DNA of 64,000 bases, taken from the NCBI RefSeq assembly GCF_024105735.1, contig NZ_JAAAML010000004.1, positions 186,001-250,000 of the forward strand. Reading direction: 5' to 3'. Position numbers and translations under genes: made by a program. This DNA is from Parahoeflea alexandrii. Lineage in GTDB: Bacteria; Pseudomonadota; Alphaproteobacteria; Rhizobiales; Rhizobiaceae. Shown here in pieces: positions 38,935 through 56,739 of this stretch (positions within the stretch are counted from its first letter, which is position 1; every line of letters starts with the position of its first letter). The notes below the pieces were generated by a model that saw only the letters and a program-made list of their open reading frames with translations, was not told where the DNA came from and did not search any database.

Positions 38935-39009
38935 ACCTCCCGGTGACTGGCGTGCGGTCGCGAATGGCCGTGCGCTTTTCTTTCTTTGTTCGATGAGACG
39001 ACGGCGACC

Positions 39010-41408: not shown

Positions 41409-42355
41409 TTTCCTTCGGCAATCTGGCAAGAAAGCCCTGGATCTGGTCATGGATGGCGGCCTTCCTGGTCTGGTTCGCGACGATCATGGTAACGGGTGGC
41501 GCAAGCACGCTGGGGCTGAGCCAGGCGGCACTCACCTTCGCCGCCTTCTCGATCATCGTGGGTATCGGACAGATGTTCGTCATCACGCTTGGCCCGGGCA
41601 ACATCGACCTTTCGGTGCCCGCCACAATGACGCTGGCGGGCACGGTAGCGCTGAAGTTGATGAATGTCGAAAACGGCATGGTGGTGCCTGGCCTTCTTGT
41701 CGCGGTACTGATCGGCTTGGCGGTCGGCGTCGGGAACTACGCGCTGATCAAGGCGCTGCGGATTCCGCCGATCATCGCGACGCTTTCAATGAGCTTCATC
41801 GTGCAGTCGGCGGCGATCTGGACAAACCGGGGTCTGCGCATCAAGCCGCCGTCCGTCCTGGCGGATTTCACGACGTCCAGCACGTTGGGTGTCCCGAATG
41901 TCGCGCTGGTCGCGCTCGGCCTGTCGCTCATTGCCTGGGTGCTTCTGGAAAAATCGGTCTATGGCCGCTGGATCTCGGCTATCGGCCAGAGCATGGCGGC
42001 CGCCCGCATGGCCGGCATCCCGGTCGACGGCGCGCGCTTTGTGACCTATCTGCTGTGCGCGGTGCTCGCATCGGTGGCCGGCTACCTGCTTGCCTGTTTC
42101 TCCGGCGGCGCGGCGCTCAACATGGGGGCGGAGTATCTGCTGATGTCGATCGCGGTCGTCGTCATCGGCGGCACGGCAGTCGCCGGCGGCTACTCCAACG
42201 TGCCCGGAATCTGGGGCGCATCGCTCTTTATGTTCCTGGTCGTCTCGATGCTCAACACCTACGGCATCGGCGCCGGTGTCCGCCTCATCATGACCGGGCT
42301 CATCATCATCAGCGTCATCATGCTCGCCGGCGGTCGCCGGACAGGCATGCGATAA
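41405..42355 (+). CDS. Sugar ABC transporter, permease 2
   Basis: A 316-residue CUT2-type permease, homologous to but distinct from its neighbour. Landmarks are GIGQMFVITLGPGNIDLSVP, MNVENGMVVPGLLVAVLIGL, and the C-terminal SIAVVVIGGTAVAGGYSNVP. It differs from the usual family wording (PGNIDLS rather than GGIDLS). Having two different permeases in one operon indicates a heterodimeric channel. Confidence 0.93.
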   Translation: MISFGNLARKPWIWSWMAAFLVWFATIMVTGGASTLGLSQAALTFAAFSIIVGIGQMFVITLGPGNIDLSVPATMTLAGTVALKLMNVENGMVVPGLLVAVLIGLAVGVGNYALIKALRIPPIIATLSMSFIVQSAAIWTNRGLRIKPPSVLADFTTSSTLGVPNVALVALGLSLIAWVLLEKSVYGRWISAIGQSMAAARMAGIPVDGARFVTYLLCAVLASVAGYLLACFSGGAALNMGAEYLLMSIAVVVIGGTAVAGGYSNVPGIWGASLFMFLVVSMLNTYGIGAGVRLIMTGLIIISVIMLAGGRRTGMR

Positions 42356-42369
42356 ACAGAAAGACCGAC

Positions 42370-43284
42370 ATGGCAGAAGCCAGCATCTACGAAATCCATG
42401 ACCCGCGCTTTAGGCACCTGATCGTGACAAGCGCGGGACTCGACGAGCTCTACTCCGGCTGCCGCTGGGCAGAAGGTCCGGTCTGGTTCAATGACGCCAA
42501 CCAGCTGTTGTGGAGCGACATTCCAAACCAGCGCATGTTGCGATGGACGCCCGACGGCGGCGTTTCGGTCTACCGGGAGCCGTCGAACTTCGCCAATGGC
42601 CATACCCGTGACAGGCAGGGGCGTCTGATCTCGTGCGAGCATGGCACGCGCCGGGTCACGCGCACGGAGATAGATGGTTCGATTACGGTGCTTGCCGACA
42701 GTTTCGAAGGGGCACGGTTCAATTCGCCAAATGACGTCGTGGTCAAATCCGACGGCACTGTCTGGTTCACCGATCCCACCTACGGCATCCTGTCCGACTA
42801 TGAAGGCTACCGCGCGGACCCCGAGCAGCCGACGCGCAATGTCTACCGCCTTGATCCCGCGACCGGCGAACTCACGGCCGTGGTGACGGACTTCGTCCAG
42901 CCCAACGGCCTCGTCTTCTCGCATGACGAAACCGTTCTCTACGTGGCCGATTCCGCGGCAAGCCATGACGACAGCCTGCCGCGGCACATCCGCGTCTTCG
43001 ATGTGAAGGATGGCAAGCGGCTTGCCAATGGCCGCGTCTTCAGCGTGATCGACAACGGCATTCCGGACGGCATCCGCACCGACATGAACGGAAATCTCTG
43101 GTCAAGTGCCGCGGACGGCGTTCACTGCTTCGATTCCTCCGGCAAGCTGCTTGGCAAGATCCTGGTGCCGCAGACGGTCGCCAACCTCACCTTCGGCGGC
43201 CCGAAGCGCAACCGCCTGTTCATTGCCGCCACCCGCTCGCTCTATTCTATCTATGTCACCGCGACCGGCGCCCAGGTTCCATGA
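42370..43284 (+). CDS. SMP-30/gluconolactonase-family protein
   Basis: A 304-residue six-bladed beta-propeller enzyme of the SMP-30 family, most of which hydrolyse sugar lactones using a divalent metal. Visible motifs are CRWAEGPVWFNDANQLLWSD (metal-binding Glu), GARFNSPNDVVVKSDGTVWF (Asn), QPNGLVFSHDETVLYVADSA and NGIPDGIRTDMNGNLWSSA (metal-binding Asp). No signal peptide. Last gene of the ABC operon, so the imported compound is probably an aldonolactone, or a sugar that a cell enzyme first oxidises to one. Nearest dehydrogenase is a broken fragment just downstream. Confidence 0.9.
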   Translation: MAEASIYEIHDPRFRHLIVTSAGLDELYSGCRWAEGPVWFNDANQLLWSDIPNQRMLRWTPDGGVSVYREPSNFANGHTRDRQGRLISCEHGTRRVTRTEIDGSITVLADSFEGARFNSPNDVVVKSDGTVWFTDPTYGILSDYEGYRADPEQPTRNVYRLDPATGELTAVVTDFVQPNGLVFSHDETVLYVADSAASHDDSLPRHIRVFDVKDGKRLANGRVFSVIDNGIPDGIRTDMNGNLWSSAADGVHCFDSSGKLLGKILVPQTVANLTFGGPKRNRLFIAATRSLYSIYVTATGAQVP

Positions 43285-43471
43285 CTTGGGGGTGGCATGA
43301 GCATGGCGGTCAACACGTGGCTCATGTTTCTCGCAAACAGAAGAAGTGAAGTGTTTCCGAGCTGAGATTGGGAAAGGTCCATTCACCGGTGCTCGAACAA
43401 CGGTGCGCGGACTTGGGCACTGTTGCCACCACTCCGGGTAGCCATGAGCACCAAAACAGAAGTGCCAGGGC

Positions 43472-43680
43472 GCGGGTGCACATCCAACGGATCGGAATCT
43501 ACGGCACCGACATCTCCGAAGGCAGCCATCCCTATCTGGCATATCCTCGGATCATGGGTCATGAACTGGCCGGCGAGACCATAGACGTGTCCGAAGGCCG
43601 CCGCTTTCCAATTGGCGATACCGTTGTTGGAAATCCCTGTCTTTCGTGTGGCGGACAAGCCTGCTGCGCGGTTCATCAAT
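43472..43680 (+). pseudogene. Zinc-type alcohol dehydrogenase, N-terminal fragment
   Basis: A short open stretch encodes VHIQRIGIYGTDISEGSHPY and LAYPRIMGHELAGETIDVSE, then RFPIGDTVVGNPCLSCGGQ, the N-terminal catalytic region of a zinc alcohol/polyol dehydrogenase. The rest of the domain and the NAD-binding domain are missing. The usual first zinc ligand (GICGTD) reads GIYGTD, consistent with decay. The frame then runs into the convergent LysR gene. It lies directly after the SMP-30 gene and may once have been part of that sugar pathway. Confidence 0.75.
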
Positions 43681-44602
43681 CCGATGATGGCCGGTATTCA
43701 TCGGAGAGCGACAGGGTGATCTGTTCGACGAAACGGGACGCTGCGACCGGCAAGGCGCGGTTTCGTTTGAGGCCGAGCAGCAGCATTCCGCCCGTCACAT
43801 CGCGCGTGTCGATCTCGCGGCTGATGATGCCCCTGTCCTGCGGGGCTGACTGAGAAGCGTCCGGCGCACCGATCTGGATCTGGAAGGTGATCGCGTCGGT
43901 CGTCGCCACATGGGCCATAAGGTACTCAAAGGAATCGCTCTGTACGATGGGCGGCTTCCTGAAGGTCTTGCCGTGGAGCGCGCGTTCGAGAAGCAACCGG
44001 CCGCTGAAGCCGCGCAGGGCGAGCGCGACGGGATACTCATAACATTGCCTGAGACGCAGGATCTTGTGGCGGGCGAGCGGGTGGTCCCGCGCCATGATCG
44101 CTGCAAGGCGCTGTGGAACCGCCAGATGCACCTCGTAATCGGGCACGGTCTTCTCGTCGAAAACCAGCGCGATATCCACCTGGAAGGCCTCCAGCGCTTC
44201 GGCGGCACGGCTGTGTTCCATGACCTGAACGTTGAAGGTGACCTCTGGATATCTGGCCTGGTAGCGGGCGATCTGGGCGGGCAGAAAATACGGCATGAGA
44301 GCCTGGCTGCAGCCAATGTTGACATGTCCGCGCCGCACGCCCGCAAGATCGGCGATCAGGGAATTGAGCCGCTCTGTGTCGGCAAGCGTCTGGCGGATGT
44401 GCTGGATGGCCATTTCACCGGCGGCATTGAGCCGGACACCCTTGCTGGTGCGCTGGAAAATCTCGTAGCCGAGTTCGTCTTCATAGTTTTGCAAACGGCG
44501 CTGAACGGCGGATGGCGTCTGATTCACCTGTTCGGCCGCAGAGCGGATGGAACCCGTGCGTGCGATGGCATCGATCATGCGAAAGGTGACGAGGTGTTTC
44601 AT
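43676..44602 (-). CDS. LysR-family transcriptional regulator
   Basis: A 308-residue LysR protein. The helix-turn-helix is MIDAIARTGSIRSAAEQVNQ and QRRLQNYEDELGYEIFQRTS; the effector domain starts near residue 85 (RGHVNIGCSQALMPYFLPAQ). The ATG at 44602 is preferred because the longer frame runs through the promoter. It is divergent from the heterocycle-catabolism operon across 109 bases that carry paired GCAACGCG half-sites, so it is the probable regulator of that operon. The ligand is likely the imported heterocycle or an intermediate. Confidence 0.9.
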   Translation of the reverse strand: MKHLVTFRMIDAIARTGSIRSAAEQVNQTPSAVQRRLQNYEDELGYEIFQRTSKGVRLNAAGEMAIQHIRQTLADTERLNSLIADLAGVRRGHVNIGCSQALMPYFLPAQIARYQARYPEVTFNVQVMEHSRAAEALEAFQVDIALVFDEKTVPDYEVHLAVPQRLAAIMARDHPLARHKILRLRQCYEYPVALALRGFSGRLLLERALHGKTFRKPPIVQSDSFEYLMAHVATTDAITFQIQIGAPDASQSAPQDRGIISREIDTRDVTGGMLLLGLKRNRALPVAASRFVEQITLSLSDEYRPSSD

Positions 44603-44619
44603 GGCATTTGACTGTAACA

Positions 44620-44682
44620 CGCGTTGCGTTTTGGGCAACGCGGTTGAGAAAATTTAGCACAAGACAGCTACGCAGCAACGCG
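44620..44682. promoter_or_regulatory. Candidate LysR operator (three half-sites)
   Basis: CGCGTTGC (44620-44627) and GCAACGCG (44635-44642) form an inverted repeat with a seven-base gap. A third copy GCAACGCG follows at 44675-44682, about four helical turns from the second. This fits a LysR recognition and activation site arrangement. Confidence 0.55.
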
Positions 44683-44711: not shown

Positions 44712-45500
44712 GTGCACGAAATTCATGACAGACAGGGACGGAGAGATCGTTGGTCGCGGGATGCGTCCGGGATCAGCCTTGTGCGCCCGTCTGTCGAACC
44801 ACGCCCGGTCCGGTTTGCCGCCGAGCCTGAACCGATAGAGATCGACCTGGCGCGCTCCGCCCTGATCATCGTCGACATGCAGAACGACTTTCTTGATGCC
44901 GAAGGCTGGTTTGCAGCGGTTCGCAATGCGGAGGTTGCGCCGCTCGGCGGCATCATTCCGCGGATCAACGCACTGTCTTCAGCCTTCCGCGGTGCAGGCG
45001 CGCCGGTGATCCATCTCAACTGGGGCATACGCGCCGATGTGGCCAACCTGCCAGCCAATGTTGTCGACAAGGGATCGTCGTGCGGGCAGATCCCGGGCTA
45101 CGGGGACACGATCGCATCCGGCGATGTGCTGGTTGAAGGAAGCTGGGGGTCGGCCAGCGTTCCGGCAATCGATCAGGCCGATACCGACATCACCGTGTTC
45201 AAGCATCGGCTGTCAGGCTTCCAGGACAACGAGCTGGATCAGATCCTGCGCCGCCTCGGCATCACGACGGTCTTCTACACCGGCGTGAACCTTGATCGCT
45301 GCGTCTTTGCCACCCTGATGGACGGATGTTTCCAAGGCTACGACGCGGTGCTGGTGGAAGACGCCACGACGACTGTATCGCCCGGCCATGTCAGCGACGC
45401 CATCCTCTACCTGATCCGGCTGCTCTACGGCTTTACCACCAAGACCCAAGCGCTTCTCAACGCAATCGCAACCAAGACCGACATTGGAGAGACAGCATGA
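44712..45500 (+). CDS. Isochorismatase-fold cysteine hydrolase
   Basis: A 262-residue member of the cysteine-hydrolase superfamily. The catalytic triad is visible: Asp55 (LIIVDMQNDF), Lys164 (FKHRLSGF) and Cys197 (NLDRCVFATL). Superfamily members hydrolyse biuret, ureidoacrylate, N-carbamoylsarcosine or nicotinamide; among these a carbamoyl-amide substrate fits the neighbouring ring-opening enzyme. The N-terminal 40 residues form an extension. The GTG at 44712 follows AGGAGAG by four bases. First gene of the operon. Confidence 0.85.
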   Translation: MHEIHDRQGRRDRWSRDASGISLVRPSVEPRPVRFAAEPEPIEIDLARSALIIVDMQNDFLDAEGWFAAVRNAEVAPLGGIIPRINALSSAFRGAGAPVIHLNWGIRADVANLPANVVDKGSSCGQIPGYGDTIASGDVLVEGSWGSASVPAIDQADTDITVFKHRLSGFQDNELDQILRRLGITTVFYTGVNLDRCVFATLMDGCFQGYDAVLVEDATTTVSPGHVSDAILYLIRLLYGFTTKTQALLNAIATKTDIGETA

Positions 45501-46534
45501 CCATTACACGACGCCGTTTCACACAACTCGCCGCAGCGGGACTTGCAACGGGCCTGGCTTCGCCCGCCCTCGGCCAGAGCAAGACCAAGCTGAACATGAT
45601 CCTCAACTGGACCTACCAGGGACCGCAATCCTGGTTTTTCCTGGCCCAGGACAACGGCTATTTCGACGAGGTCGGGATCGACCTGACAATCGACCAGGGC
45701 AAGGGCTCCGGCGCTGCCGTGGGCCAGGTCGCAGGCGGCGCCTACGACGTGGGCTTCGGCGACGTCAACGCGTTGATCCGCCTGGCCGGAAACACCACCG
45801 AAGAGACGCCGATCTGCGTCTACCAGATGTACAACAAGCCGCCGTTCACGGTGGCGGTGCTTTCGAAATCCGACATCAAGACCGCAGCCGATCTTCAGGG
45901 ACGCAAGCTCGGCGGTGCCGCCAATGACGGCGCGCTCAAGCTTTTCCCGGCCTTCGCCAATGTCGCCGGACTGGATACCGCGGGCATCGAGATCCTCAAC
46001 TTCCAGTCCAATCTTCGAGAGCAGATGCTGAAATCCGAACAGGTCGAGGGCGTTTTCGGATACGTCAACACGATCAGGTTCTCGGCCAAGCTTTCGGGCA
46101 TGAACCCCGACGAGGACATCCGCTTCATCAATTTCGGCGATTACGGCATGGACCTCTATTCGAACGGGATCATCCTGTCGAAAAAGCTGGTTGCTGAAAA
46201 CCCGGAGCTGGTGAAGGGCATGGTTTGGGCGATCAACAAGGGTGTGCAGGACACCCTTGCCGATCTGGACGCGGCCGTCGAATCCGTCGCCAGGCGCGAA
46301 CCGCTGATCAACAAGGCGGTCGAGAAAGAACGGCTAATCGCGACCCTCCAGGACGAGATGAACCATCCGGAGCTGGCAGAAACCGGCCTGGGCGCCGTGA
46401 GTCCGGACCGTTTCAAGGAATCGATCGATCTGGTGGTCAAGGCAGACGGCCTGGAGCGTACCCCGGCCGCGTCGGAGATCTTTACCGACGCGTTTTTGCC
46501 GTCGGCCGACGAACGCATCTACAAGCTGCTCTGA
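45497..46534 (+). CDS. NMT1/THI5-like ABC binding protein, Tat-exported
   Basis: A 345-residue periplasmic binding protein. The N-terminus TRRRFTQLAAAGLATGLASP is a twin-arginine signal with cleavage near ALG. The mature part matches the NMT1/THI5 (SsuA-like) family: LNWTYQGPQSWFFLAQDNGY, then IDQGKGSGAAVGQVAGGAYD and VGFGDVNALI. Known NMT1/THI5 proteins bind pyrimidines, sulfonates or nitrate. It has a close paralogue (50368-51363) with a Sec signal in the same operon. ATGA junction with the cysteine hydrolase gene. Confidence 0.9.
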   Translation: MTITRRRFTQLAAAGLATGLASPALGQSKTKLNMILNWTYQGPQSWFFLAQDNGYFDEVGIDLTIDQGKGSGAAVGQVAGGAYDVGFGDVNALIRLAGNTTEETPICVYQMYNKPPFTVAVLSKSDIKTAADLQGRKLGGAANDGALKLFPAFANVAGLDTAGIEILNFQSNLREQMLKSEQVEGVFGYVNTIRFSAKLSGMNPDEDIRFINFGDYGMDLYSNGIILSKKLVAENPELVKGMVWAINKGVQDTLADLDAAVESVARREPLINKAVEKERLIATLQDEMNHPELAETGLGAVSPDRFKESIDLVVKADGLERTPAASEIFTDAFLPSADERIYKLL

Positions 46535-46543
46535 GATCCGCGA

Positions 46544-47338
46544 ATGGACCTTCAACTCAAAGACAAGATCGTGGTGGTCACCGGCCCGGCCAAGGGCATG
46601 GGTGCCGCGATCTCCCTGGGGTTCGCGCGTGAAGGCGCGAACCTCGCCCTGCTCGGCCGTGATACCGGTGCGATCGAGCCTGTTGCCGGCGAGGCCAGGG
46701 CGATGGGGGTTCAGGCAGAGATCTTCTCCTGTGACGTGACCGATCCGGATGCGGTCGAAGCCGCGATTGCAAACGTCCTGGAAAGATATGATGGCCGGAT
46801 CGACATCCTGGTCAATGTAGCCGGAGGCACGGGCCCGATCGGGAAGAGCGGCGTGGAGACTTCAGCCCGCGAATTCGACGAGATCATCCACCTCAACATG
46901 CGCGGCCCGTTCAACCTCATCCGGGCGGTGGCCCCGACGATGCAACGCCAGCGCAGCGGCAAGATCGTCAATGTGGGGGGAACCTTCGGCCTGCGCGGGC
47001 GCGCCATGCGGATGGCTTACTCCAGCTCGAAATGGGGGCTGCGCGGCATCACAAAGAGTTTCGCGCTGGAGCTTGGACCCGACAACATCAATGTCAACCT
47101 GGTTGCGCCGGGCATGGTTGAGGGTCCGCGCTTTCGCACCAAGGTCGTCCCCCAGGTCGCGGCCCAACACGGCATCTCCGAGGACGAGGCCGCAGAACTG
47201 CACGCCAGCGATTACGCGCTGGCGCGTATCAGCACCGACGAGGACATCGCGGCTGCGACACTGTTCCTTGCCTCTGAACAATCGCGCCAGATCACCGGGG
47301 TCGACCTGCCGGTCGACGGTGGCTGGGCAGCACTCTAG
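46544..47338 (+). CDS. Short-chain dehydrogenase/reductase
   Basis: A 264-residue SDR. The NAD(P)-binding TGPAKGMGAAISLGFAREG, then NVAGGTGPIG (NAG-like), catalytic Ser in VNVGGTFGLRG region, and YSSSKWGLRGITKSFAL (Tyr-x3-Lys) are seen. The C-terminus ends in the usual TGVDLPVDGGW. Reduction or oxidation of a ring or side-chain hydroxyl/keto group is possible in this operon, but no substrate is known. Ribosome-binding site weak (GAG). Located between the first binding-protein gene and the dihydroorotase-like gene. Confidence 0.9.
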   Translation: MDLQLKDKIVVVTGPAKGMGAAISLGFAREGANLALLGRDTGAIEPVAGEARAMGVQAEIFSCDVTDPDAVEAAIANVLERYDGRIDILVNVAGGTGPIGKSGVETSAREFDEIIHLNMRGPFNLIRAVAPTMQRQRSGKIVNVGGTFGLRGRAMRMAYSSSKWGLRGITKSFALELGPDNINVNLVAPGMVEGPRFRTKVVPQVAAQHGISEDEAAELHASDYALARISTDEDIAAATLFLASEQSRQITGVDLPVDGGWAAL

Positions 47339-47346
47339 GGACTTCC

Positions 47347-48765
47347 ATGACGGATCTCATTCTCAAAGGCGGCACCGTCGTTCATGAAAACGGACGCGAA
47401 ACAGCCGACATCGCGATCACCGGAGAGCTGATCTCCGCCATTGGCGCCCCCGGAACCTTGGGTGATGCCCTGGAGGTGGTCGATGTGAGCGGCCATCATC
47501 TGATCCCGGGCGGCATCGACATGCATGTGCATTTTCGCGAGCCGGGGTACACCCACAAGGAAGACTGGGGCACAGGCACGCAGGCTGCGGCTATGGGCGG
47601 AGTGACCACGGTCTTCGAGATGCCCAACACCAACCCGCCCACGCGCTCGGCGATCGAGTTGCGGCAAAAGCAGGACTGCGCCCAAAAGGCCTGCGTGGAT
47701 TTCGGCCTCTACGGACTTCTGGCAGAGGACAACATCGACGAGATCCCCGGCTTGATCGAGGCCGGGGCCAACGCCTTCAAATGCTTCATGGGCAACACGT
47801 TCGGCAACCTGCCTTCGCCCTCGACCGGTGCAATGCTCGAAGGGTTCGAGCTGATTGCGGCATCCGGCCTACGGATCTCGCTGCATGCGGAAACCGCGTC
47901 GATCATGGCCTGGCGGCAGGCCAAACTCGAAGCCGCGGGGCTGAGCGCGCCGCTCCACCACATAGCTGCCCGGCCTGAAGTCGTGGCGATCGAGGCGGTC
48001 GCCCGCGCAGCCATCCTTGCCGAGTGGACCGGGGCACGCATCCACGTGCTGCATATCTCGTCGGCCGGAGAACTGCGTCCCCTCGCCGAGGCCAAGGCGC
48101 GCGGCGTCGATGTGACCGGAGAGACCTGCCCCTGTTATCTCTTCCTCGACAGCCGCGATTACGACCGGCTGGGCAGCATCATCCGGATCAACCCACCGGT
48201 GCGGGAAGAGAAAGATTCCAAAGCCATCTGGGACGCCTTGCAGTCGGGCGTGGTCGACATGATCGCGACCGACCACGCGCCGCATACGCCTGAGGAAAAG
48301 CGGAAAGACATTATCTGGCAGGCCGATTGCGGCTTTCCCGGCGTGGAGACCCAGATGCCGCTGATGCTCACCGAAGTTGTCGCCGGTCGGATGACGCTCG
48401 AGCATTATGTGCGGATCTCGTCAGCCAATCCGGCCCGCGCATTCGGGCTTTATCCGATGAAGGGACGCTTGGCGGTCGGCGCGCATGCCGATATCGCAGT
48501 TCTCGACATGGCGCGCGAGGAAATCGTGCAGGCCGCGCGGCTTCACAGCCGCGGCAAGATCACGCCGTTCGAGGGACGCAAGACGATCGGGGCGCCGGTG
48601 CACACACTGGTGCGCGGCTGTTTTGTCCAGCGCGACAGGATGCTGGTGCCGGACATGGCCGGACACGGCAGACAGGTTACCGACATCCAGTCCATGCCCG
48701 AAGCAAAACCAAAAAACATCGAGATGAGCCTCGCTCATCTGCTCAGCGCGGGTGCCGTGACATGA
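47347..48765 (+). CDS. Dihydroorotase/allantoinase-like cyclic amidohydrolase
   Basis: A 472-residue amidohydrolase with a binuclear zinc site: His60 and His62 (MHVHFREPG), carbamylated Lys145 (FKCFMGN), His180 (SLHAET), His236 (LHISS) and Asp309 (ATDHAPH). This is the pattern of dihydroorotase, allantoinase and hydantoinase, which open cyclic ureides. It is longer than a typical dihydroorotase (about 430). Its presence with a barbiturase-family enzyme points to catabolism rather than pyrimidine synthesis. The gene overlaps the ABC ATPase start (ATGA). Confidence 0.88.
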   Translation: MTDLILKGGTVVHENGRETADIAITGELISAIGAPGTLGDALEVVDVSGHHLIPGGIDMHVHFREPGYTHKEDWGTGTQAAAMGGVTTVFEMPNTNPPTRSAIELRQKQDCAQKACVDFGLYGLLAEDNIDEIPGLIEAGANAFKCFMGNTFGNLPSPSTGAMLEGFELIAASGLRISLHAETASIMAWRQAKLEAAGLSAPLHHIAARPEVVAIEAVARAAILAEWTGARIHVLHISSAGELRPLAEAKARGVDVTGETCPCYLFLDSRDYDRLGSIIRINPPVREEKDSKAIWDALQSGVVDMIATDHAPHTPEEKRKDIIWQADCGFPGVETQMPLMLTEVVAGRMTLEHYVRISSANPARAFGLYPMKGRLAVGAHADIAVLDMAREEIVQAARLHSRGKITPFEGRKTIGAPVHTLVRGCFVQRDRMLVPDMAGHGRQVTDIQSMPEAKPKNIEMSLAHLLSAGAVT

Positions 48766-49577
48766 GTATGGCCCGGTTTGTCGAACTCGAGAATGTCGGC
48801 GTGACGTTTGGCCAGGGGCCGGAGCAGACCGAAGCCTTGCAGCCAACCAGCCTGACTGTCGAGCGAGGCGATTTCCTGGCCTTTGTCGGGCCCTCCGGCT
48901 GTGGGAAATCGACCATCCTGAAACTTGTCAGCGAGCTGTTGCGGCCGACAACGGGCAACATCTTTTTTGGCGGACGCGAATTGGGTGCCAAGCCGGTGCG
49001 GGTGGGCATGGCGTTTCAGAGCGCATCGCTGCTGCCTTGGATGTCGGTTCGCGACAATGTGATGCTTCCGCTCAAGATCGTACCGCCGTTCAAGTCCGGT
49101 TTTCGCAGCAAGAAGAACGGCGAATACCGGGACCGGGCAGACGCGCTGCTTGCGCAGGTTGGTCTCGAGGACTTTGCCGACAAGAGCCCGTGGCAGCTTT
49201 CGGGTGGCATGATGCAAAGGGCAAACCTGTGCCGTGCGCTGATTCACGATCCCGATATCCTGCTGCTCGATGAACCATTCGGCGCGCTGGATCAGTTCAC
49301 CCGCGAAGAGCTTTGGCAGACGCTGCAGGACCTCTGGATCGACCGGAAATCAACGGTGATGCTAGTCACCCACGATCTGCGCGAGGCCGCCTACCTGGCA
49401 AACCGTATCTGCGTCATGAGCCCGCGACCGGGCCGCATCATCGATGACCGGCAAGTGAGTTTCGCCCGCCCGCGCCCGATAGACCTGACCTTTGATCCTG
49501 ATTTTGTCACGCTGGTTCAGGACTTGCGAGGCCTCATCGTCCATGCCCCGAACGTCAAGAAGGTAGACGCGACATGA
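48762..49577 (+). CDS. ABC transporter ATP-binding protein (NitT/TauT type)
   Basis: A 271-residue ATPase. Walker A GPSGCGKST, the Q-loop FQSASLLPW, signature WQLSGGMMQRANLCRAL, Walker B DILLLDEPFGALD and the H-loop LVTHDLREA are present. The group energises uptake of taurine, nitrate, pyrimidines or thiamine precursors with NMT1/THI5-type binding proteins, of which the operon has two. An insertion before the signature (FKSGFRSKKNGEYRD) is a little longer than usual. Coupled by ATGA to the permease gene. Confidence 0.93.
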   Translation: MSMARFVELENVGVTFGQGPEQTEALQPTSLTVERGDFLAFVGPSGCGKSTILKLVSELLRPTTGNIFFGGRELGAKPVRVGMAFQSASLLPWMSVRDNVMLPLKIVPPFKSGFRSKKNGEYRDRADALLAQVGLEDFADKSPWQLSGGMMQRANLCRALIHDPDILLLDEPFGALDQFTREELWQTLQDLWIDRKSTVMLVTHDLREAAYLANRICVMSPRPGRIIDDRQVSFARPRPIDLTFDPDFVTLVQDLRGLIVHAPNVKKVDAT

Positions 49578-50329
49578 AGCCGACGATGCGTAAATTTGCG
49601 CCGACCATCCTGATCATCGGAGTGTTCGTTTTCTGGGAACTCTTCTGCCTCTTGGCTGGGATTTCGGAACTTGTGCTTCCTCGTCCGACACGGATCCTCG
49701 CGGCCTTTTTCGAGTACGCGCCCGCAATCATGCCGCACGCCTGGCAGACCCTCTACACCACGCTTGTGGGCTTCTCGTTCGGAGTGATGATCGGGCTTTC
49801 CCTCGGCGTTCTGATCGGCTCTTCGAAACTGGCCTATGACACCGCCTATCCATTGCTGGTGGGGATCTCCTCGATCCCCAAGGTGGCGGTTGTCCCGATC
49901 CTGGTGTTGTGGTTTGGCGCAGGCACGGTGCCTGCAATCCTGACGGCGATGATCATCTGCATCTTCCCGATCGTCGTCAACGTCTCCACCGGCATTGCCA
50001 CGGTTGAGCCGGAACTCGAAGACGTCATGCGCTCACTCAAGGCAAAGCGCTGGGAGATGCTCTGGAACGTCGGCCTGCCCCGGTCGATGCCCTACTTCTT
50101 TGCCTCCCTGAAAGTGGCGATCACCCTGTCCTTCGTAGGCTCGGTCATTGCCGAGACCGTCGCCTCCAACAAGGGCGTCGGCAACATGATGCTTATCGCC
50201 TCTTCCTCCTTCAACGTGCCGCTCGTCTTCGCAGGCCTGATGATCCTCGCGGTCATGGGGATCACGCTTTACGCGATCTTCTCGGTGGTCGAACGGCGGA
50301 TGGTCGGATGGGCGCTTCGCAAACAGTAG
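49574..50329 (+). CDS. ABC transporter permease (NitT/TauT type)
   Basis: A 251-residue membrane protein with six helices and the EAA loop near AKRWEMLWNVGLPRSMPYFF, where the ATPase docks. FSFGVMIGLSLGVLIGSSKL and FVGSVIAETVASNKGVGNMM are family landmarks. Only one permease is present, so the channel is a homodimer. It completes the transporter served by the two binding proteins. AAGG lies nine bases before the ATG. Confidence 0.93.
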   Translation: MKPTMRKFAPTILIIGVFVFWELFCLLAGISELVLPRPTRILAAFFEYAPAIMPHAWQTLYTTLVGFSFGVMIGLSLGVLIGSSKLAYDTAYPLLVGISSIPKVAVVPILVLWFGAGTVPAILTAMIICIFPIVVNVSTGIATVEPELEDVMRSLKAKRWEMLWNVGLPRSMPYFFASLKVAITLSFVGSVIAETVASNKGVGNMMLIASSSFNVPLVFAGLMILAVMGITLYAIFSVVERRMVGWALRKQ

Positions 50330-50367
50330 ACCGAGAAAACCACCGCCAACCAACCGGAGATCTGAAA

Positions 50368-51363
50368 ATGAAAAGATTGCTGACTGCGGCTTTTGCCGTA
50401 ATTTCGATGACGGCATCCGCCGGTGCCGCCGATATCCCGATCAAGTTCACGCTCGACTGGAAGATCCAGGGTGTGCACAGCTGGTTCTACCTGGCCAAGG
50501 AGAAGGGCTACTTTGCCGCCGAGGGTCTGGACGTCACCATCGACCAGGGCGAAGGCTCGGCCGCGACCGTCACGCGCATCATGTCGGGTGCCTATGACGC
50601 CGGCTTCGGCGACATGAATGCGATCATCCAGAATGCCGCGACCAATCCGGATGAAGCCCCGGTGATGGTTTACCAGATCTACAACCAGCCACCGTTTGCG
50701 GTTCTGACCAAGGCGGGCGGAAAAGTCGAAAGCCTTTCCGGTCTTGAAGGTCTCAAGGTCGGTGGCCCCGCCGGTTCCGCCTCGACCAAGCTGTTTCCCG
50801 CATTGGCGGAAGCAGCCGGTTTCGATGCGGCAAAGGTCGAGATCATCAATGTCGCGCCCAACCTGCAGGAACAGATGCTGATCCAGGACCAGGTGGATGC
50901 GAGCCTCGTCTTCAACGTGACCAGCTATCTCAACATTCTGGGCCAGAACATGGATCCGGACGAGGACTTCAAATGGTTCCCCTATGGCGAAGCCGGGCTG
51001 GATATCTATTCCAATGGCGTGATGGTCTCGCCAAAGCTCCTGAACGACCATCCAGACGCGGTAAAGGGCCTGGTTTCGGCTATCGCCAAGGCGATGGCTG
51101 ACGTGATCGCCAATCCCGCAGAAGGCATCGACATCATCGTCAAGACCGAGCCGCTTTCCAATGGCGCACTTGAAATGAAGCGGATGGAGTTTGCCTTGAA
51201 CAATCTGATCTATTCCGATGAAACCAAGGCCAACGGCATCGGCACAGTCGACCCGGAAAGACTGACGCGGTCGATTGCCGTCATCCAGAAACTTTATGAT
51301 CTGCCCAATGCGCCCGAAGCGAGTGCCGTTTTCGACGATGCCTTTCTGCCGGCCACGCAATAA
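50368..51363 (+). CDS. NMT1/THI5-like ABC binding protein, Sec-exported
   Basis: A 331-residue binding protein, paralogue of the one at 45497-46534. It has an ordinary Sec signal (MKRLLTAAFAVISMTASAGA) instead of a Tat signal. Shared blocks include SWFYLAKEKGYFAAEGLDVT, IDQGEGSAATVTRIMSGAYD and AGFGDMNAII; the C-terminal DDAFLPATQ matches TDAFLPSAD. The two probably bind related ligands with different affinity or oxidation state and use the same ATPase and permease. CCGGAGA precedes the ATG. Confidence 0.92.
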   Translation: MKRLLTAAFAVISMTASAGAADIPIKFTLDWKIQGVHSWFYLAKEKGYFAAEGLDVTIDQGEGSAATVTRIMSGAYDAGFGDMNAIIQNAATNPDEAPVMVYQIYNQPPFAVLTKAGGKVESLSGLEGLKVGGPAGSASTKLFPALAEAAGFDAAKVEIINVAPNLQEQMLIQDQVDASLVFNVTSYLNILGQNMDPDEDFKWFPYGEAGLDIYSNGVMVSPKLLNDHPDAVKGLVSAIAKAMADVIANPAEGIDIIVKTEPLSNGALEMKRMEFALNNLIYSDETKANGIGTVDPERLTRSIAVIQKLYDLPNAPEASAVFDDAFLPATQ

Positions 51364-51380
51364 CCGTTCTCAACCCAACT

Positions 51381-51412
51381 CCCCGGGGCACGGCTCCGGG
51401 GTGCCCCCGGGG
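51381..51412 (+). other. Stable stem-loop between binding-protein and amidohydrolase genes
   Basis: CCCCGGGGCAC pairs with GTGCCCCCGGGG (one C bulge) around a nine-base loop. Such structures after a binding-protein gene often protect the upstream mRNA and lower expression of the genes beyond; that role is inferred. Confidence 0.6.
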
Positions 51413-51418
51413 TTCATC

Positions 51419-52867
51419 ATGGATACCACCATCATCGCAGCCGAGGCTGCACTCGCCGGCGCGGATTATTCGCTCACCGGTCCCTGCGAAATCCTCGTCT
51501 CAGGCGGGCTGATCGAAGCGATCCGCCCAGTCGCCGCGACACCGCAAGCGCCGCGCCTGCTGGCCATTCCCGCGCTTGCGGATGCCCACAATCACGCTCG
51601 ACCGCTCTCGACCACGTCATTCGGCTGCGGCAACAAACCTCTGGAAACATGGCTGCCCCAGCTTGCCGTCATGCCATCCGTCGATCCCTACACGGCCGCG
51701 GCCGCATCTTTTGCCCGCTCGCTGCGCGGTGGCGTGACCTCGATCATGGTGCACCTGACGCGCGCGATGGGTCTGACACCGCTGACCGAAGAAGCCCGTG
51801 AAATCGCCCGGGCCGCGCATGATGTCGGCGTTTCGATCGGCTTTGCCATTGCCATGCGCGACCGCAATCCGCTGATCTATGGTGATGATGCCGAGATCCT
51901 TAACCGGCTGGACCCGTCCGAGCGCGATCTCGTCAGGCAAACCTGGCTCCGGCCGCTACCCCCGGTCAGCGAGCAGATGGCGCTCGTCGATGCCGTTGCC
52001 GATGCGGTTTCAGACATGCCCGGCCATATCGATGTTCAATATGGCCCGACCGGCGTGCAATGGTGCTCCGCGGAACTGCTGCAGGCGATCGCCAGGGCCT
52101 CCAAACAGACCGGGCGGCGGATCCATATGCACCTTCTGGAAACGAAGCCGCAAAGGGTCTGGGCGGATGGCGCCTACCCCGACGGAATCGTATCCTTTCT
52201 CGATCAGATCGGCCTGCTGTCGCCGCGGCTGACGCTGGCCCATTGCGTCTGGGCGCGGCCGGAGGAACTGGCTTTGATCGCTGGTGCGGGTGCGCGGATC
52301 GCGGTCAATGCTTCGTCAAACCTGCACCTCTACTCGGGAATTGCCCCAGTGCCCGACATGCTGGAAGCAGGCGTTTCGGTGGCCATGGGCCTCGACGGCT
52401 GCGCGCTTGACGAGGACGACGATGCGCTCAGAGAGATGCGGCTGTTTCATTTGCTCAATCATGCTGCGGGATTCAGCGACGGCGGATTGACCCGTCAAAC
52501 CGCGTTGCATGCGGCATGCGCTGCGGGCCGTCCGGGTCTGGGGCTTGGCCCCGGTGGTGTCCTTGCCGCCGAACTGCCGGCCGATATCCTGCTGCTTGAT
52601 CTCGCGGCTCTTGACCGGGACGCGTTGATGCCGGTGAACCCTACGGATTACCTCTTCGCCCGTGCCGGTCAGGCCCATATCGTCGAGGCCTACTCGAGAG
52701 GCCGCAAGGTTCTGTCCAATGGCACCGTGCTCGGTGTCGACCTTCCCGCGCTCGAAACCAGTTTGCGCTCCGCCTATCGAGACGGTCTGCCGGATAAGGC
52801 GCCCCTTGTTGCCGCCTGGCCCAAGATAGAGGCGGCAATCGGCAGCTTCTACCGGGGCTGCTGCTGA
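51419..52867 (+). CDS. Amidohydrolase (cytosine/s-triazine deaminase-like)
   Basis: A 482-residue member of the mononuclear amidohydrolase group that includes AtzB, TrzN, GuaD and cytosine deaminase. Ligands: His57 and His59 (DAHNHARPL), His238 with Glu241 (HMHLLET), His275 (LAHCVW) and Asp326 (MGLDGCALD). These enzymes remove an amino, chloro or alkylamino group from a heterocycle. Here a deamination feeding the next enzyme is likely. The ATG at 51419 has no ribosome-binding site and lies seven bases from a stable hairpin. TGATG junction with the AtzD-family gene. Confidence 0.85.
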   Translation: MDTTIIAAEAALAGADYSLTGPCEILVSGGLIEAIRPVAATPQAPRLLAIPALADAHNHARPLSTTSFGCGNKPLETWLPQLAVMPSVDPYTAAAASFARSLRGGVTSIMVHLTRAMGLTPLTEEAREIARAAHDVGVSIGFAIAMRDRNPLIYGDDAEILNRLDPSERDLVRQTWLRPLPPVSEQMALVDAVADAVSDMPGHIDVQYGPTGVQWCSAELLQAIARASKQTGRRIHMHLLETKPQRVWADGAYPDGIVSFLDQIGLLSPRLTLAHCVWARPEELALIAGAGARIAVNASSNLHLYSGIAPVPDMLEAGVSVAMGLDGCALDEDDDALREMRLFHLLNHAAGFSDGGLTRQTALHAACAAGRPGLGLGPGGVLAAELPADILLLDLAALDRDALMPVNPTDYLFARAGQAHIVEAYSRGRKVLSNGTVLGVDLPALETSLRSAYRDGLPDKAPLVAAWPKIEAAIGSFYRGCC

Positions 52868-53967
52868 TGCCGGGTGAAGCTCAGGTCTTTCGTCTGCCCA
52901 TGAGCGGGCCTGACGACGTGTCCGGGATCGCGTCGCTGATCACAGACGGCAGCCTCGACCCGACGCAGATCATTGCGATCCTTGGCAAGACCGAGGGCAA
53001 TGGCTGTGTCAACGATTTCACCCGCGGCTATGCCACGCAATCCCTGCGCGCCATGCTGGCCAGGTACCTCGGCGAGGCGCAGATCGCGCGGATACCGCTG
53101 GTGATGTCCGGTGGCACCGAGGGCGGACTGTCACCGCACTGGATCGTTCTGAGCCGGACCGAAGGAACTGGTTCAGTACAGTCCGAAACAGAGGCCCCGG
53201 CACTGGCGATGGCCGGCGTGATCACCCGCCCGCTCGATCCGCGCGAAATCGGTCGCAGCGAGCAGGCGGAACTGGTGCGCACCGCTGTGCTGGAAGCGAT
53301 GACAGCGGCTGATATTTCAGGGCCCGATGACGTGCATTTTGTTCAGATCAAGTGTCCGCTGCTGACATCCAGGCGGGCCAATTCCGCCGTCGGTGATGTG
53401 GCGACGGACAACATGCTCAAGTCGATGGGTCTGTCCCGCGGCGCCTCAGCACTTGGTGTGGCCTTGGCGCTTGGCGAGGTCGAGACGATCACCGATGCGC
53501 AGATCGGGACCGACATGTCGCTTTGGTCGAGCCGCGCTTCCTGCTCGGCCGGGATCGAGCTGATGGCCTGCGAGATCATCGTGCTTGGCCTGTCGCGGCA
53601 ATGGTCCGGTCCCTTGCGGATCGGTCATGACGTGATGCGTGATGCGATCGATGCCCCGGCCATCGCCGGGCTTCTGGCACAGGCCGCACCGGGCACTGGC
53701 CTGCAGCAGGCTCAAGCCAGTCTGATCGCGGTTCTTGCCAAGGCGGAAGCCTCGGGCTCTGGCCAGATCCGCGGCAAGAGGCACACGATGCTCGAGGACA
53801 GCGACATCTCCTCCACCCGCCATGCGCGCGGCTTTGTCGGCGGTCTGCTGGCGGGGCTCATCGGCCATACCGAGCTTTTCGTCTCCGGCGGCGCGGAACA
53901 CCAGGGCCCCGATGGCGGCGGACCGGTGGCCATCATTTACACATCACTGAAAGGAACAGATGCATGA
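52867..53967 (+). CDS. Ring-opening amidohydrolase (AtzD/barbiturase family)
   Basis: A 366-residue enzyme of the small family of cyanuric-acid hydrolases and barbiturases. The threefold pseudo-repeat is visible as three Lys/Ser pairs: Lys41 (ILGKTEGNG) with Ser81 (VMSGGTEGG), Lys162 (VQIKCPLLT) with Ser227 (SCSAGIE), and Lys292 (LAKAEASG) with Ser340 (FVSGGAEHQGPDGGG). The family hydrolyses the ring of cyanuric acid to carboxybiuret or of barbiturate to ureidomalonate; which one applies here cannot be read. Coupled to both neighbours by overlapping start/stop codons. Confidence 0.93.
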   Translation: MPGEAQVFRLPMSGPDDVSGIASLITDGSLDPTQIIAILGKTEGNGCVNDFTRGYATQSLRAMLARYLGEAQIARIPLVMSGGTEGGLSPHWIVLSRTEGTGSVQSETEAPALAMAGVITRPLDPREIGRSEQAELVRTAVLEAMTAADISGPDDVHFVQIKCPLLTSRRANSAVGDVATDNMLKSMGLSRGASALGVALALGEVETITDAQIGTDMSLWSSRASCSAGIELMACEIIVLGLSRQWSGPLRIGHDVMRDAIDAPAIAGLLAQAAPGTGLQQAQASLIAVLAKAEASGSGQIRGKRHTMLEDSDISSTRHARGFVGGLLAGLIGHTELFVSGGAEHQGPDGGGPVAIIYTSLKGTDA

Positions 53968-54377
53968 CCAAGCTTATTGTCCGGGCCGGAGATTTCGTCT
54001 TCGGCGGCCATCTCGAGGAAGAGGCCGCTCCCGCAACGACTGCCGCCTTCAAGGCGCTGCTACCCTACAAGGGCAAGATCGTGCATGTACGCTGGTCCGG
54101 CGAAGGGGTCTGGATTCCGCTGGGCGACACGAATTTCGGCGTCGGCTACGAAAACCACACCAGCCACCCCGCGCCCGGACACATCATCCTCTATCCCGGC
54201 GGCATCAGCGAAACCGAGATCCTTCTGGCCTATGGCGGAGTGGATTTTTCCTCGAAAATGGGACAATTGGCGGGCAACCATTTCATCACGCTGACCTCGG
54301 GACTGGAAAACCTGATGACGCTCGGCAATGCGGTTCTCTGGAAGGGCGCGCATGACATCTCGTTTGAAATCGCCTGA
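53964..54377 (+). CDS. DUF3830 protein (cyclophilin-like fold)
   Basis: A 137-residue soluble protein of the DUF3830 type, with a predicted beta-barrel. Typical segments are VHVRWSGEGVWIPLGDTNFG, NHTSHPAPGHIILYPGGISE and EILLAYGGVDFSSKMGQLAG. The family has no known activity; tight coupling (ATGA) to the AtzD-family gene suggests a catalytic or binding role on the same small molecule. No signal peptide, so it acts in the cytoplasm. Confidence 0.8.
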   Translation: MTKLIVRAGDFVFGGHLEEEAAPATTAAFKALLPYKGKIVHVRWSGEGVWIPLGDTNFGVGYENHTSHPAPGHIILYPGGISETEILLAYGGVDFSSKMGQLAGNHFITLTSGLENLMTLGNAVLWKGAHDISFEIA

Positions 54378-54380
54378 TCA

Positions 54381-54962
54381 ATGACTGGCCGCGCCATCAA
54401 GACGATCGCGGTTTACTGCGGCTCGAACACCGGACAGGGAGATGTCTACCTGCGGGCCGCAGATGCGCTCGGGCGCCATCTGGCAAAATCCGGTATCGGG
54501 ATCGTATATGGCGGCACCCACAAGGGACTGATGGGGGCCCTGGCAGACGCGGCCATCGCGGAGGGCGGGATGGTTCACGGCGTAATCACCGAGCGGCTGC
54601 GCGACAAGGGCCACCTGCATGAACAACTGTCCCGGCATGAAATCCTGCCGACGATGAAGGAACGCAAGCACCGCATGATGGAGCTTGCCGACGCCTTCAT
54701 CGCCCTGCCGGGAGGTATCGGAACCCTCGAGGAGTTCATGGAAGTCTGGACCCTGAACCAGCTCGGCGAGTTTGAAAAACCCGCCGGGCTGTTCAGTGTC
54801 GACGGCTACTACGAGCCATTCATGGGTTTCATCGACCACATGATTTCACAGGCCTTCCTGCCGGCCGCGCACCGGAACTCGATCGTGCTGGCTTCCGATC
54901 CCAGGAGTCTGCTCGACGGGCTGATCAATTTTCGCAGAATAGATGTGCCGAAGTGGATGTAG
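54381..54962 (+). CDS. LOG-family protein (nucleotide 5'-monophosphate phosphoribohydrolase type)
   Basis: A 193-residue Rossmann-like LOG protein. The signature GIGIVYGGTHKGLMGALADA and the second motif ALPGGIGTLEEFMEVW are complete. LOG enzymes split adenosine-type monophosphates into base and ribose 5-phosphate. In this operon it could release a heterocyclic base from a nucleotide for the ring-opening enzymes. It starts four bases after the DUF3830 stop and ends the operon. No clear terminator is seen in the 247 bases before the converging ABC gene, only a weak stem GCTTG/CAAGC near 55084-55100. Confidence 0.88.
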   Translation: MTGRAIKTIAVYCGSNTGQGDVYLRAADALGRHLAKSGIGIVYGGTHKGLMGALADAAIAEGGMVHGVITERLRDKGHLHEQLSRHEILPTMKERKHRMMELADAFIALPGGIGTLEEFMEVWTLNQLGEFEKPAGLFSVDGYYEPFMGFIDHMISQAFLPAAHRNSIVLASDPRSLLDGLINFRRIDVPKWM

Positions 54963-55209: not shown

Positions 55210-56739
55210 TCAAGCGGCCTGGCCAGAATTGTCCCCCAAACCGGAGATGGCCTGGATCAGGCTGTCCTCGGTGACTTCCTCGGAGGTAAATTCACGCATG
55301 ATCCGGCCGCTGTACATGGCGACGATTCGATCGGAAACCTGCAGCACTTCAGGCATTTCCGACGAGATCACAACAACAGCGTAGCCCTGTGAAGCAAGGT
55401 CCCGGATCAGTTTGTGGATCTCGGACTTGGAGCCGACATCAATGCCGCGCGTCGGCTCGTCCACGATTAGCACCTTCGGGTGCATGGACAGCCATTTCCC
55501 GATGACGATCTTCTGCTGGTTGCCCCCCGACAGATTGCCCGCCTGCTGCTTCCAGCTTGGGGTCTTGATCTCCAGCTTGTCATAATAGTGGTCGAAAATC
55601 GCAATCTCCGCGCCGTCCGAAACGAAAGGCCCGGCGGTCAGGTCACTGACTTGGGGCAGTGTCATGTTGTCCCGGCAATTCATGCCCAGCACGAGACCTT
55701 GTTCCTTGCGGTTTTCAGGCACCAGAGAAATGCCAAGATTGATCGCGTCCACAGGTGAGGAAATCTCCACCTCCTGGCCTTCCAGGACAATGCAGCCCCC
55801 GGTCGGCGTTCGGAGGCCAAACAGTGTTTCGGCGATTTCGGTGCGCCCGGCACCGACCAGACCGTAAAAGCCGACCACCTCCCCGGCGCGAACCTTGAAA
55901 CTGATATCCTTGTAGAGCGAACCGCAGGAAAGACCCTTCACCTCGAGCGCCACTTCGCCAAGTTCATGGTCGCTTGCGTGCCGCGTCAGATCAAGCTTGC
56001 GCCCGATCATCAACTGGGTGATGTCTTCCTCGGTGGTCTCCGCGGTTTCCAGCGTGCCGCGGTACTGACCATCACGCAGAACGGAAATCCGATCTGTGAT
56101 CTTGAAGATCTCTTCCATCCGGTGCGAGATGTAGATGATGCCGACGCCATGGGATTTGAGATCGTCGATCACCTCGAAGAGGACGGTTTTCTCGGCATCG
56201 GTAAGCGAGGCTGTCGGCTCATCGAAGATCACAGCCTTGGCTTCATGGGTCAGCGCCCGTGCAATTTCGACCATCTGCTGGTTGGCGATCGACAGGTCCC
56301 CGACCCGGGTCCGGGCGTCGAAGCCCACCTTGAGACGCTGCAGGATCGTGTTGGTCTTGTCGAAAAGAGCTTGCCAGTCCACCAGGCCGAAGCGCTTGCG
56401 CGGCAATTCGCCCAGGTAGATGTTTTCCGCAACCGTGAGCTCCTTGGCCAGACTGAGCTCCTGATGAATGAAGACAATGCCCTTGTGCTTGGCCTCGAGC
56501 GGCGAGCTCATCTTCACGGGCGTTTCACTGACAATGATGCGGCCGCTGTCTGGCTGATGAATGCCGCCAAGGACCTTCATCAGTGTTGACTTACCCGCAC
56601 CGTTTTCTCCCATCAGGGCGTGCACCTCACCTGGCATCACATCGAAGGAGACGCCGTCGAGTGCGCGGACACCGGGAAAGGTCTTGACGATGGCTTCAAG
56701 GCGAAGCGCGGGAACCGATGCGGAAACTTGCTCGCTCAT
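55210..56739 (-). CDS. Sugar ABC transporter, ATP-binding protein (double ATPase, CUT2)
   Basis: A 509-residue RbsA/MglA-type protein with two ATPase halves. First half: GENGAGKST, signature LSIANQQMVEIARAL and Walker B AVIFDEPTASLTD. Second half: GLVGAGRTEIAETL (degenerate Walker A), LSGGNQQKIVIGKWL and VLIVDEPTRGIDVGSK. ATGA overlap with the upstream permease gene. Last gene of the minus-strand operon SBP-SDR-permease-permease-ATPase. It is of normal length and both signatures are intact, unlike the shorter relative at 39010. Confidence 0.94.
   Translation of the reverse strand: MSEQVSASVPALRLEAIVKTFPGVRALDGVSFDVMPGEVHALMGENGAGKSTLMKVLGGIHQPDSGRIIVSETPVKMSSPLEAKHKGIVFIHQELSLAKELTVAENIYLGELPRKRFGLVDWQALFDKTNTILQRLKVGFDARTRVGDLSIANQQMVEIARALTHEAKAVIFDEPTASLTDAEKTVLFEVIDDLKSHGVGIIYISHRMEEIFKITDRISVLRDGQYRGTLETAETTEEDITQLMIGRKLDLTRHASDHELGEVALEVKGLSCGSLYKDISFKVRAGEVVGFYGLVGAGRTEIAETLFGLRTPTGGCIVLEGQEVEISSPVDAINLGISLVPENRKEQGLVLGMNCRDNMTLPQVSDLTAGPFVSDGAEIAIFDHYYDKLEIKTPSWKQQAGNLSGGNQQKIVIGKWLSMHPKVLIVDEPTRGIDVGSKSEIHKLIRDLASQGYAVVVISSEMPEVLQVSDRIVAMYSGRIMREFTSEEVTEDSLIQAISGLGDNSGQAA

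Follow-up and report, generated by a model that had tools for sequence, protein, structure and literature searches.

A LysR-flanked operon joining a cyanuric acid hydrolase-type gene to a deaminase-like amidohydrolase, an ABC importer and an allantoinase-like enzyme in Parahoeflea alexandrii

Relation to described pathways and gene order

The closest described systems to the locus treated here, a run of eleven co-directional genes in Parahoeflea alexandrii, are the atzDGEHF operon of Pseudomonas sp. ADP, whose route from cyanuric acid to ammonia was reconstituted in vitro according to the accessible part of PMC6219798, and the cyanuric acid/biuret cluster of Rhizobium leguminosarum 3841 (pRL10). 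The run occupies positions 44712-54962 of the + strand of the window, by which is meant the full 64,000-nt stretch analysed (contig NZ_JAAAML010000004.1, positions 186,001 to 250,000; 61.4% GC), which sits on a 568 kb contig of a 4.91 Mb genome. Like the Pseudomonas operon, it encodes an AtzD-type ring opener, and the same genome also carries atzG, atzE, atzH-like and atzF genes; unlike in that operon, these other atz genes lie 45 kb from atzD, and the window operon adds its own importer, a deaminase-like amidohydrolase (DEAM), a short-chain dehydrogenase (SDR), a dihydroorotase-like cyclic amidohydrolase (DHO), a DUF3830 protein and a LOG-family protein. With the R. leguminosarum cluster it shares AtzD, an importer and cysteine hydrolase(s), but in that cluster the importer is of the BMP type, BiuH exceeds the cut-off of its model and a TrtA-type protein is encoded, and the 17 kb seen contain neither SDR nor DHO nor a TRZ/ATZ deaminase. 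The statement of the initial annotation that known cyanuric acid and barbiturate pathways lack this full set holds against these two cyanuric acid clusters.

Likenesses to single enzymes of other pathways are partial. Barbiturase (5hwe) belongs to the same fold family as the window AtzD but differs from it in the specificity residues at all five positions. RutB of the Rut pathway has the KxRxSGF segment found around the catalytic lysine of the window cysteine hydrolase (cysH), but cysH reaches 102 bits against the RutB model (TIGR03614), whose cut-off is 378. The allantoinase/dihydroorotase/hydantoinase family shares its metal ligands and fold with DHO, but the eleven genes include none of the allantoate pathway.

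The open-licence literature on DUF3830, cyanuric acid hydrolase/barbiturase, biuret hydrolase and marine/roseobacter cyanuric acid (titles and partial abstracts) yielded no description of the operon, no paper linking 5-azauracil with cyanuric acid and none joining a ring-opening amidohydrolase with allantoinase and an ABC transporter. The kind of operon, triazine or ureide catabolism by known enzyme families, is known, and the combination is new as far as found. To that extent the label of a candidate new operon stands; the same operon is nevertheless present in other sequenced genomes, annotated there gene by gene.

The reading developed below, held with moderate confidence, is that of a LysR-controlled nitrogen-scavenging operon made up of two modules served by a single ABC importer, for which we infer every enzyme activity and the order of the steps. 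In module A, the substrate-binding protein SBP2 would deliver an amino-substituted s-triazine (ammelide or a close analogue), DEAM would convert it to cyanuric acid and AtzD would open this to 1-carboxybiuret, which would pass through allophanate to ammonia and CO2 by the action of AtzG-AtzE, AtzH and AtzF encoded 45 kb downstream. In module B, SBP1 would deliver a cyclic ureide, the SDR would change its redox state, the allantoinase-like DHO would open the ring and the RutB-like cysH (an acetamidase/formamidase in other operons) would remove a terminal amide or carbamoyl group, with DUF3830 and LOG predicted to serve this branch. The features are as follows.

43676..44638, - strand: lysR, LysR-type regulator, divergent (longest open reading frame; judged from the translation, the gene more likely starts at the in-frame ATG at 44602)
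44621..44641, no strand: operator-like palindrome GCGTTGC-N7-GCAACGC between lysR and the operon
44712..45500, + strand: cysH, cysteine hydrolase of the isochorismatase fold whose active site is RutB-like; starts with GTG
45497..46534, + strand: SBP1, NMT1/THI5-type substrate-binding protein
46544..47338, + strand: SDR, short-chain dehydrogenase in which Gly stands in for the canonical catalytic Ser
47347..48765, + strand: DHO, allantoinase/dihydroorotase-like cyclic amidohydrolase
48762..49577, + strand: ABC importer ATPase
49574..50329, + strand: ABC importer permease
50368..51363, + strand: SBP2, second NMT1/THI5-type binding protein
51419..52867, + strand: DEAM, TRZ/ATZ-family deaminase-like amidohydrolase (start uncertain; the script call is 51401)
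52867..53967, + strand: AtzD-type cyanuric acid hydrolase
53964..54377, + strand: DUF3830 protein, for which a low-confidence model suggests a cyclophilin-like fold
54381..54962, + strand: LOG-family protein (LOG/Lysine_decarbox)

Pfam and NCBIfam assigned families to all eleven products, in agreement with the genes, coordinates and families first proposed, including the twin NMT1/THI5 binding proteins, which are both NMT1 members and 40% identical to each other; the divergent LysR gene was missing from that first gene list. DHO and DEAM are both assigned to Amidohydro_1, and AtzD to Amido_AtzD_TrzD. With the start codons chosen, five of the ten junctions overlap by 1-4 bases (cysH/SBP1, DHO/ATPase, ATPase/permease, deaminase/AtzD and AtzD/DUF3830), three are spaced by 3-9 bases and two have gaps of 38 and 55 bases (permease-SBP2 and SBP2-deaminase, respectively), so that the earlier description of mostly overlapping start and stop codons was slightly generous, applying to half of the junctions and not to the other five.

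Conservation was assessed on core loci, defined by the presence of SBP1, SDR and DHO together at set identity limits, of which 21 were fetched (the window included and a duplicate of L069 dropped) and their genes called with a codon-score caller. The set thus recurs, whole or in part, in 20 other loci, which is more than chance, and these loci come from alpha-, beta- and gammaproteobacteria and encode proteins 40-89% identical to those of the window. Holders include Meridianimarinicoccus, Pseudolabrys, Aureimonas, Halopseudomonas, a betaproteobacterial metagenome-assembled genome and plasmids of Skermanella and Azospirillum. Among the 21, lysR is present in 18, AtzD in 12, DUF3830 in 10 and LOG in five, while all eleven genes are found only in the window and in L070 (G067). 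The count for AtzD rules it out as an indispensable part of the operon.

The cyanuric acid hydrolase and the deaminase-like enzyme

Judged by its residues, the window AtzD has every mark of a cyanuric acid hydrolase. It scores 519.4 bits against the cyanuric acid hydrolase model NF052395 (cut-off 360), and among solved structures those nearest to it are cyanuric acid hydrolases, 4nq3 reaching 390 bits and barbiturase 5hwe 254. In an alignment of 79 distinct sequences it carries all 12 of the cyanuric acid hydrolase residues checked and none of the five barbiturase specificity residues, and the catalytic residues K42, K162, K296, S85, S233, S344, R54, R195 and R325 (AtzD numbering) are intact, which confirms the three Lys/Ser pairs reported initially. 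The accessible part of PMC3758960 gives Arg195, Thr321, Arg325, Gly345 and Gly346 as specificity positions of cyanuric acid hydrolases; the window protein has Arg/Thr/Arg/Gly/Gly there, whereas barbiturase has Asn/His/Lys/Val/Ser. A barbiturase function for AtzD is rejected on these five positions, and with it the barbiturase half of the AtzD/barbiturase label in the initial annotation.

The phylogenetic placement that had been suggested as a check was carried out on 77 AtzD rows, two divergent rows from L124 having been excluded beforehand. The window protein groups with those of Aliiruegeria, G115, Meridianimarinicoccus and G067 (support 100/94), and the actinobacterial barbiturase-type rows are placed far from it. 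The 14 rows that accompany the operon, whole or in part (Aliiruegeria among them), require seven changes of this label on the tree, gains and losses counted together, and at least five of these changes are forced by well-supported branches. The two excluded proteins (G206:C23, 4117 and 11539) have Phe or Tyr instead of serine at position 233 and likely differ in function.

DEAM retains the residues HxH, His, Glu, His and Asp, which we take to be the amidohydrolase active site, in all five aligned sequences, and the fold matches of its structure model (pLDDT 68.6) span the whole TRZ/ATZ amidohydrolase group, including TrzN and AtzA. Homologues of at least 45% identity occur in 34 of 387 genomes, and 28 of these 34 carry AtzD (its presence being taken from a draw of 397 genomes of the order), compared with 67 of the 397 genomes overall. 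The two genes lie no more than 55 kb apart in 16 of the 28, where random placement would give 0.6, a count weakened by the choice of the 55 kb limit after the distances had been seen and by the origin of the 16 pairs in seven genera, one of which contributes seven pairs. Within the core loci, best-hit assignment finds SBP2 and DEAM together in 14 and both absent from the other seven; raw tblastn flags SBP2 in four loci without DEAM (L037, L039, L055 and L109), where the best hit is a single SBP1-type gene, and these were counted as lacking SBP2. The DEAM gene of L069 was found by tblastn and not by the gene caller, and the genome search shows an open frame there (G115).

Module A also occurs in loci without the remaining genes. 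In Aliiruegeria lutimaris (L032), the 21 kb seen contain SBP2, DEAM and AtzD but neither SDR nor DHO. The adjoining cluster encodes a BMP-type importer, a formamidase, BiuH (which exceeds the cut-off of 370 with 413.8 bits), a TrtA-type protein, a cupin and the start of an allophanate hydrolase that is cut off where the stretch ends. This cluster resembles that of R. leguminosarum 3841, with no atzD of its own seen, and the atzD beside DEAM would feed it. Two further genomes (G070 and G106) have a DEAM-AtzD pair without other operon genes in the 20 kb seen. In L110, L114 and L115 (G065, G207 and G294), the order SBP1-SDR-DHO-ABC-SBP2-DEAM is followed by a PotF-type ABC transporter where AtzD would be, and AtzD is found 19.5-51 kb from the deaminase gene. 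The co-occurrence of DEAM with AtzD, their linkage and their standing apart from SDR and DHO suggest that DEAM probably makes the substrate of AtzD, cyanuric acid, from an amino-triazine, the simplest such reaction being from ammelide to cyanuric acid. The tie between deaminase and ring opener proposed initially is thereby strengthened.

The steps after ring opening could be completed elsewhere on the same contig. A group of genes 45 kb downstream of the operon (G000:C9 285.8-291.7 kb, L172) encodes TrtA-like, AtzG-like (PF13318), AtzE (675.9 bits, cut-off 425.75) and AtzH-like (PF11533) proteins and a divergent allophanate hydrolase, AtzF (755.6 bits, cut-off 511), and its atzG, atzE, atzH-like and atzF genes could together complete the conversion of cyanuric acid to ammonia. 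The window genome has, 50 kb away, a homologue (65%) of the R. leguminosarum TrtA candidate, which scores below the BiuH cut-off (246 vs 370); the R. leguminosarum protein taken as TrtA is itself 63% identical to the solved TrtA 6xix. In G354, the distance from the operon to genes for allophanate hydrolase and AtzE is about 7 kb, and AtzG- and AtzH-like genes were identified there by eye. AtzE is present in 97 of the 397 genomes and in 58 of the 67 with AtzD (p 1e-33), and allophanate hydrolase exceeds its cut-off in 20 of 21 genomes with all or part of the operon, a figure that has no background rate and is given no weight. A protein resembling 5-formyltetrahydrofolate cyclo-ligase is encoded between AtzE and the AtzH-like protein, and one similar to it by eye follows atzH in L049.

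The cyclic-ureide branch, its distribution and the regulator

The genes SBP1, SDR and DHO, often accompanied by DUF3830 and one amidase, probably form a cyclic-ureide branch. The classical SDR catalytic tetrad is Asn-Ser-Tyr-Lys. The operon SDR has the Tyr and Lys, and 13 residues before the Tyr it has Gly, within an invariant GGTFG, in all 27 sequences; with Gly where the catalytic serine is expected, it departs from the classical short-chain dehydrogenases. DHO passes the allantoinase model TIGR03178 by 1.4 bits (359.2 vs a cut-off of 357.85) and falls below the cut-offs of the more specific allantoinase models PRK06189 (360 vs 631) and PRK08044 (276 vs 688). Its metal ligands HxH, Lys, His, His and Asp are kept in 27 of 27 sequences, and its nearest solved structures are allantoinases and an L-selective hydantoinase.

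The Asp-Lys-Cys triad of cysH, described as intact in the initial annotation, is kept in all eight operon cysH sequences. According to the accessible part of PMC7948467, BiuH and TrtA also require a second lysine (K145/K132) and a glutamine (Q215/Q202); the lysine is missing from all eight sequences and the glutamine from six, being kept in L037 and L039. The window cysH has Leu at both BiuH/TrtA biuret-binding positions and scores 89 bits against the BiuH model (cut-off 370). On the missing lysine and glutamine, together with the model scores, cysH is rejected as a member of the biuret or triuret hydrolases. Each core locus has at most one amidase, cysH in eight and the acetamidase/formamidase FmdA in six, with both in none and neither in seven, as counted over stretches of limited length.

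DHO and DUF3830 form a separate unit on two Azospirillum plasmids, and in G310 (L170) SDR, DHO, DUF3830 and LOG stand together without AtzD or importer genes adjoining, so that LOG and DUF3830 go with module B. The DUF3830 model has a mean pLDDT of 56, and Foldseek matches it with the cyclophilin-like 3kop at E 5.2e-4 and with KslB, a Pictet-Spenglerase, at E 1.8e-3. Both matches serve as leads only; the latter makes an enzyme of C-N condensation, or its reverse, worth considering. DUF3830 (PF12903) is present in 104 of the 397 genomes. The chemistry suggested by these genes would comprise a redox step, ring opening and removal of an amide or carbamoyl group from a cyclic ureide.

A second type of cluster, seen in L117, L118 and L119 (G245, G159 and G064), has genes for a molybdenum hydroxylase large subunit, a DHO-like protein and another TRZ/ATZ deaminase adjacent to one another, and includes AtzD in two of the three loci (L117 and L118). 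The molybdenum hydroxylase may take the place of the SDR there.

A DHO homologue at E <1e-90 occurs in 26 of the 397 genomes, and in 12 of these (hereafter close-DHO genomes) its identity is at least 57%. An AtzD-family gene is present in 11 of the 12 (Fisher p 1.6e-8), five of the 12 being from one genus, and AtzE in 10. The identities of AtzD and DHO covary across 12 operons (r 0.75), with one of 2000 permutations as high, and those of SDR and DHO covary less (rho 0.30). The 20 genomes of the same family in the draw have neither AtzD nor DHO; the operon is thus patchy and was probably acquired.

A lysR homologue accompanies 18 of the core loci, the window included. The related palindrome pattern, with up to three mismatches, has one match in the window, compared with 0.04 expected. 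A scripted palindrome consensus scores above all 200 shuffles in nine of 18 loci (the window, L033, L069, L034, L037, L039, L055, L113 and L116), equals the best shuffle in three (L035, L158 and L159) and falls below it in six (L070, L088, L056, L157, L160 and L109); the consensus was built from the same loci that it scored and the shuffles preserve base composition alone, which makes these counts a description and not a test. Degenerate palindromes visible by eye in some of the lower-scoring loci were left out of the counts. A regulatory element conserved in all loci, which was considered, holds only in part: about half of the loci scored carry a similar element at the corresponding position.

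To the left of the operon, an open reading frame at 43368-43853 in part resembles the N-terminal region of a zinc alcohol dehydrogenase; it lies between an SMP-30 gene and lysR and may be the remnant of a gene. Ribose-type ABC transporter genes flank the operon on both sides (38986-43284 and 55210-56739), the left set being accompanied by an SMP-30/gluconolactonase gene at 42400-43284. The remnant and the transporter genes were recognised by eye.

One route or two, and the origin of the substrate

Several observations weigh against the two-module reading. DEAM falls below the cut-off of every curated functional model (126.5 vs 609 at best), and its fold matches single out no triazine enzyme. 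Six of the 34 DEAM genomes lack AtzD, and among the 12 that have both genes more than 55 kb apart or unlinked, 10 carry them on different contigs and two at distances above 2 Mb. AtzD itself is found in only 12 of the 21 core loci, and since four of these 12 (L037, L039, L055 and L056) have no DEAM, DEAM cannot be the sole source of the AtzD substrate. Only nine of the 12 close-DHO genomes have an AtzD with all 12 hydrolase residues: the AtzD of G236 has Glu for Thr321, G206 (L124) has only the forms without serine 233, and G226 has no AtzD. In the downstream group the AtzH-like protein passes the NCBIfam HpxZ oxalurate model, AtzE- and AtzH-type proteins also serve other routes, and atzGEH clusters are rarely associated with atzD, as far as the accessible part of PMC6219798 reports.

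The support for heterocycle catabolism in general, as first proposed, does not extend to the single linear route proposed with it, since DEAM with SBP2 and SDR-DHO with SBP1 occur apart and the active site of cysH is not that of a biuret or triuret hydrolase. A linear pathway in which a single natural N-heterocycle (such as an oxidised purine or a 5-azapyrimidine) would be deaminated and then turned by SDR and DHO into cyanuric acid for AtzD, with the amidase removing a formyl or carbamoyl side product, is possible though doubtful. It would account for the near-constant presence of an AtzD-family gene in close-DHO genomes (11 of 12), for the covariation of AtzD and DHO identities and for the L117 and L118 clusters, where a molybdenum hydroxylase and another deaminase accompany AtzD and DHO. 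The operon AtzDs are also scattered in the family tree, with at least five changes of partnership, and keep the hydrolase residues (with Ser for Thr 321 in L037 and L039), which speaks for this pathway. The finding of the two modules apart speaks against it, as do two Azospirillum operons without AtzD in the stretch seen and the origin of five of the 12 close-DHO genomes in one genus, and no known substrate would need all of the steps.

A recently assembled pathway for synthetic s-triazines (melamine or herbicide residues) would fit the combination of a TRZ/ATZ-family deaminase with AtzD, the TrzN and AtzA matches of the deaminase fold, the location of three core loci on plasmids (L157, L159 and L160) and an IS630 transposase in the L159 stretch, mobile elements not having been searched for around the other loci. 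Such an origin is nonetheless unlikely, because the 40-89% identity of the other core loci to the window is unlike recent spread and because SDR and DHO have no known role in the man-made triazine route. An oxidative pyrimidine route, with AtzD as barbiturase and cysH as a ureidomalonase-like enzyme, is highly improbable: the RutB-like active site of cysH and the membership of barbiturase in the AtzD family would agree with it, but the five specificity positions are of the hydrolase type and the actinobacterial barbiturase-type rows lie far off in the tree.

It is tentatively proposed, at a strength well below that of the two-module reading itself, that cyanuric acid is an intermediate in the breakdown of a natural N-heterocycle by this operon, with the serine-less SDR and the DUF3830 enzyme as new steps. 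The starting compound would perhaps be a 5-azapyrimidine or a product formed when guanine or uric acid is oxidised. If true, this would give cyanuric acid hydrolases, a family so far explained mainly by man-made triazines, the natural source pathway that they lack. Cyanuric acid can arise in nature through guanine oxidation. The accessible part of PMC7948467 names the oxidation of uric acid as a natural source. A natural source would explain the operon, although nothing in the present results proves it.

The operon offers testable roles for DUF3830 and for a group of SDRs without the usual catalytic serine. At 40-89% protein identity across three classes of Proteobacteria, it joins a cyanuric acid hydrolase with a dedicated deaminase, importer and regulator. 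This combination suggests that a natural precursor exists, identifies the genes by which it could be found and hints that cyanuric acid may have a natural source not yet known.

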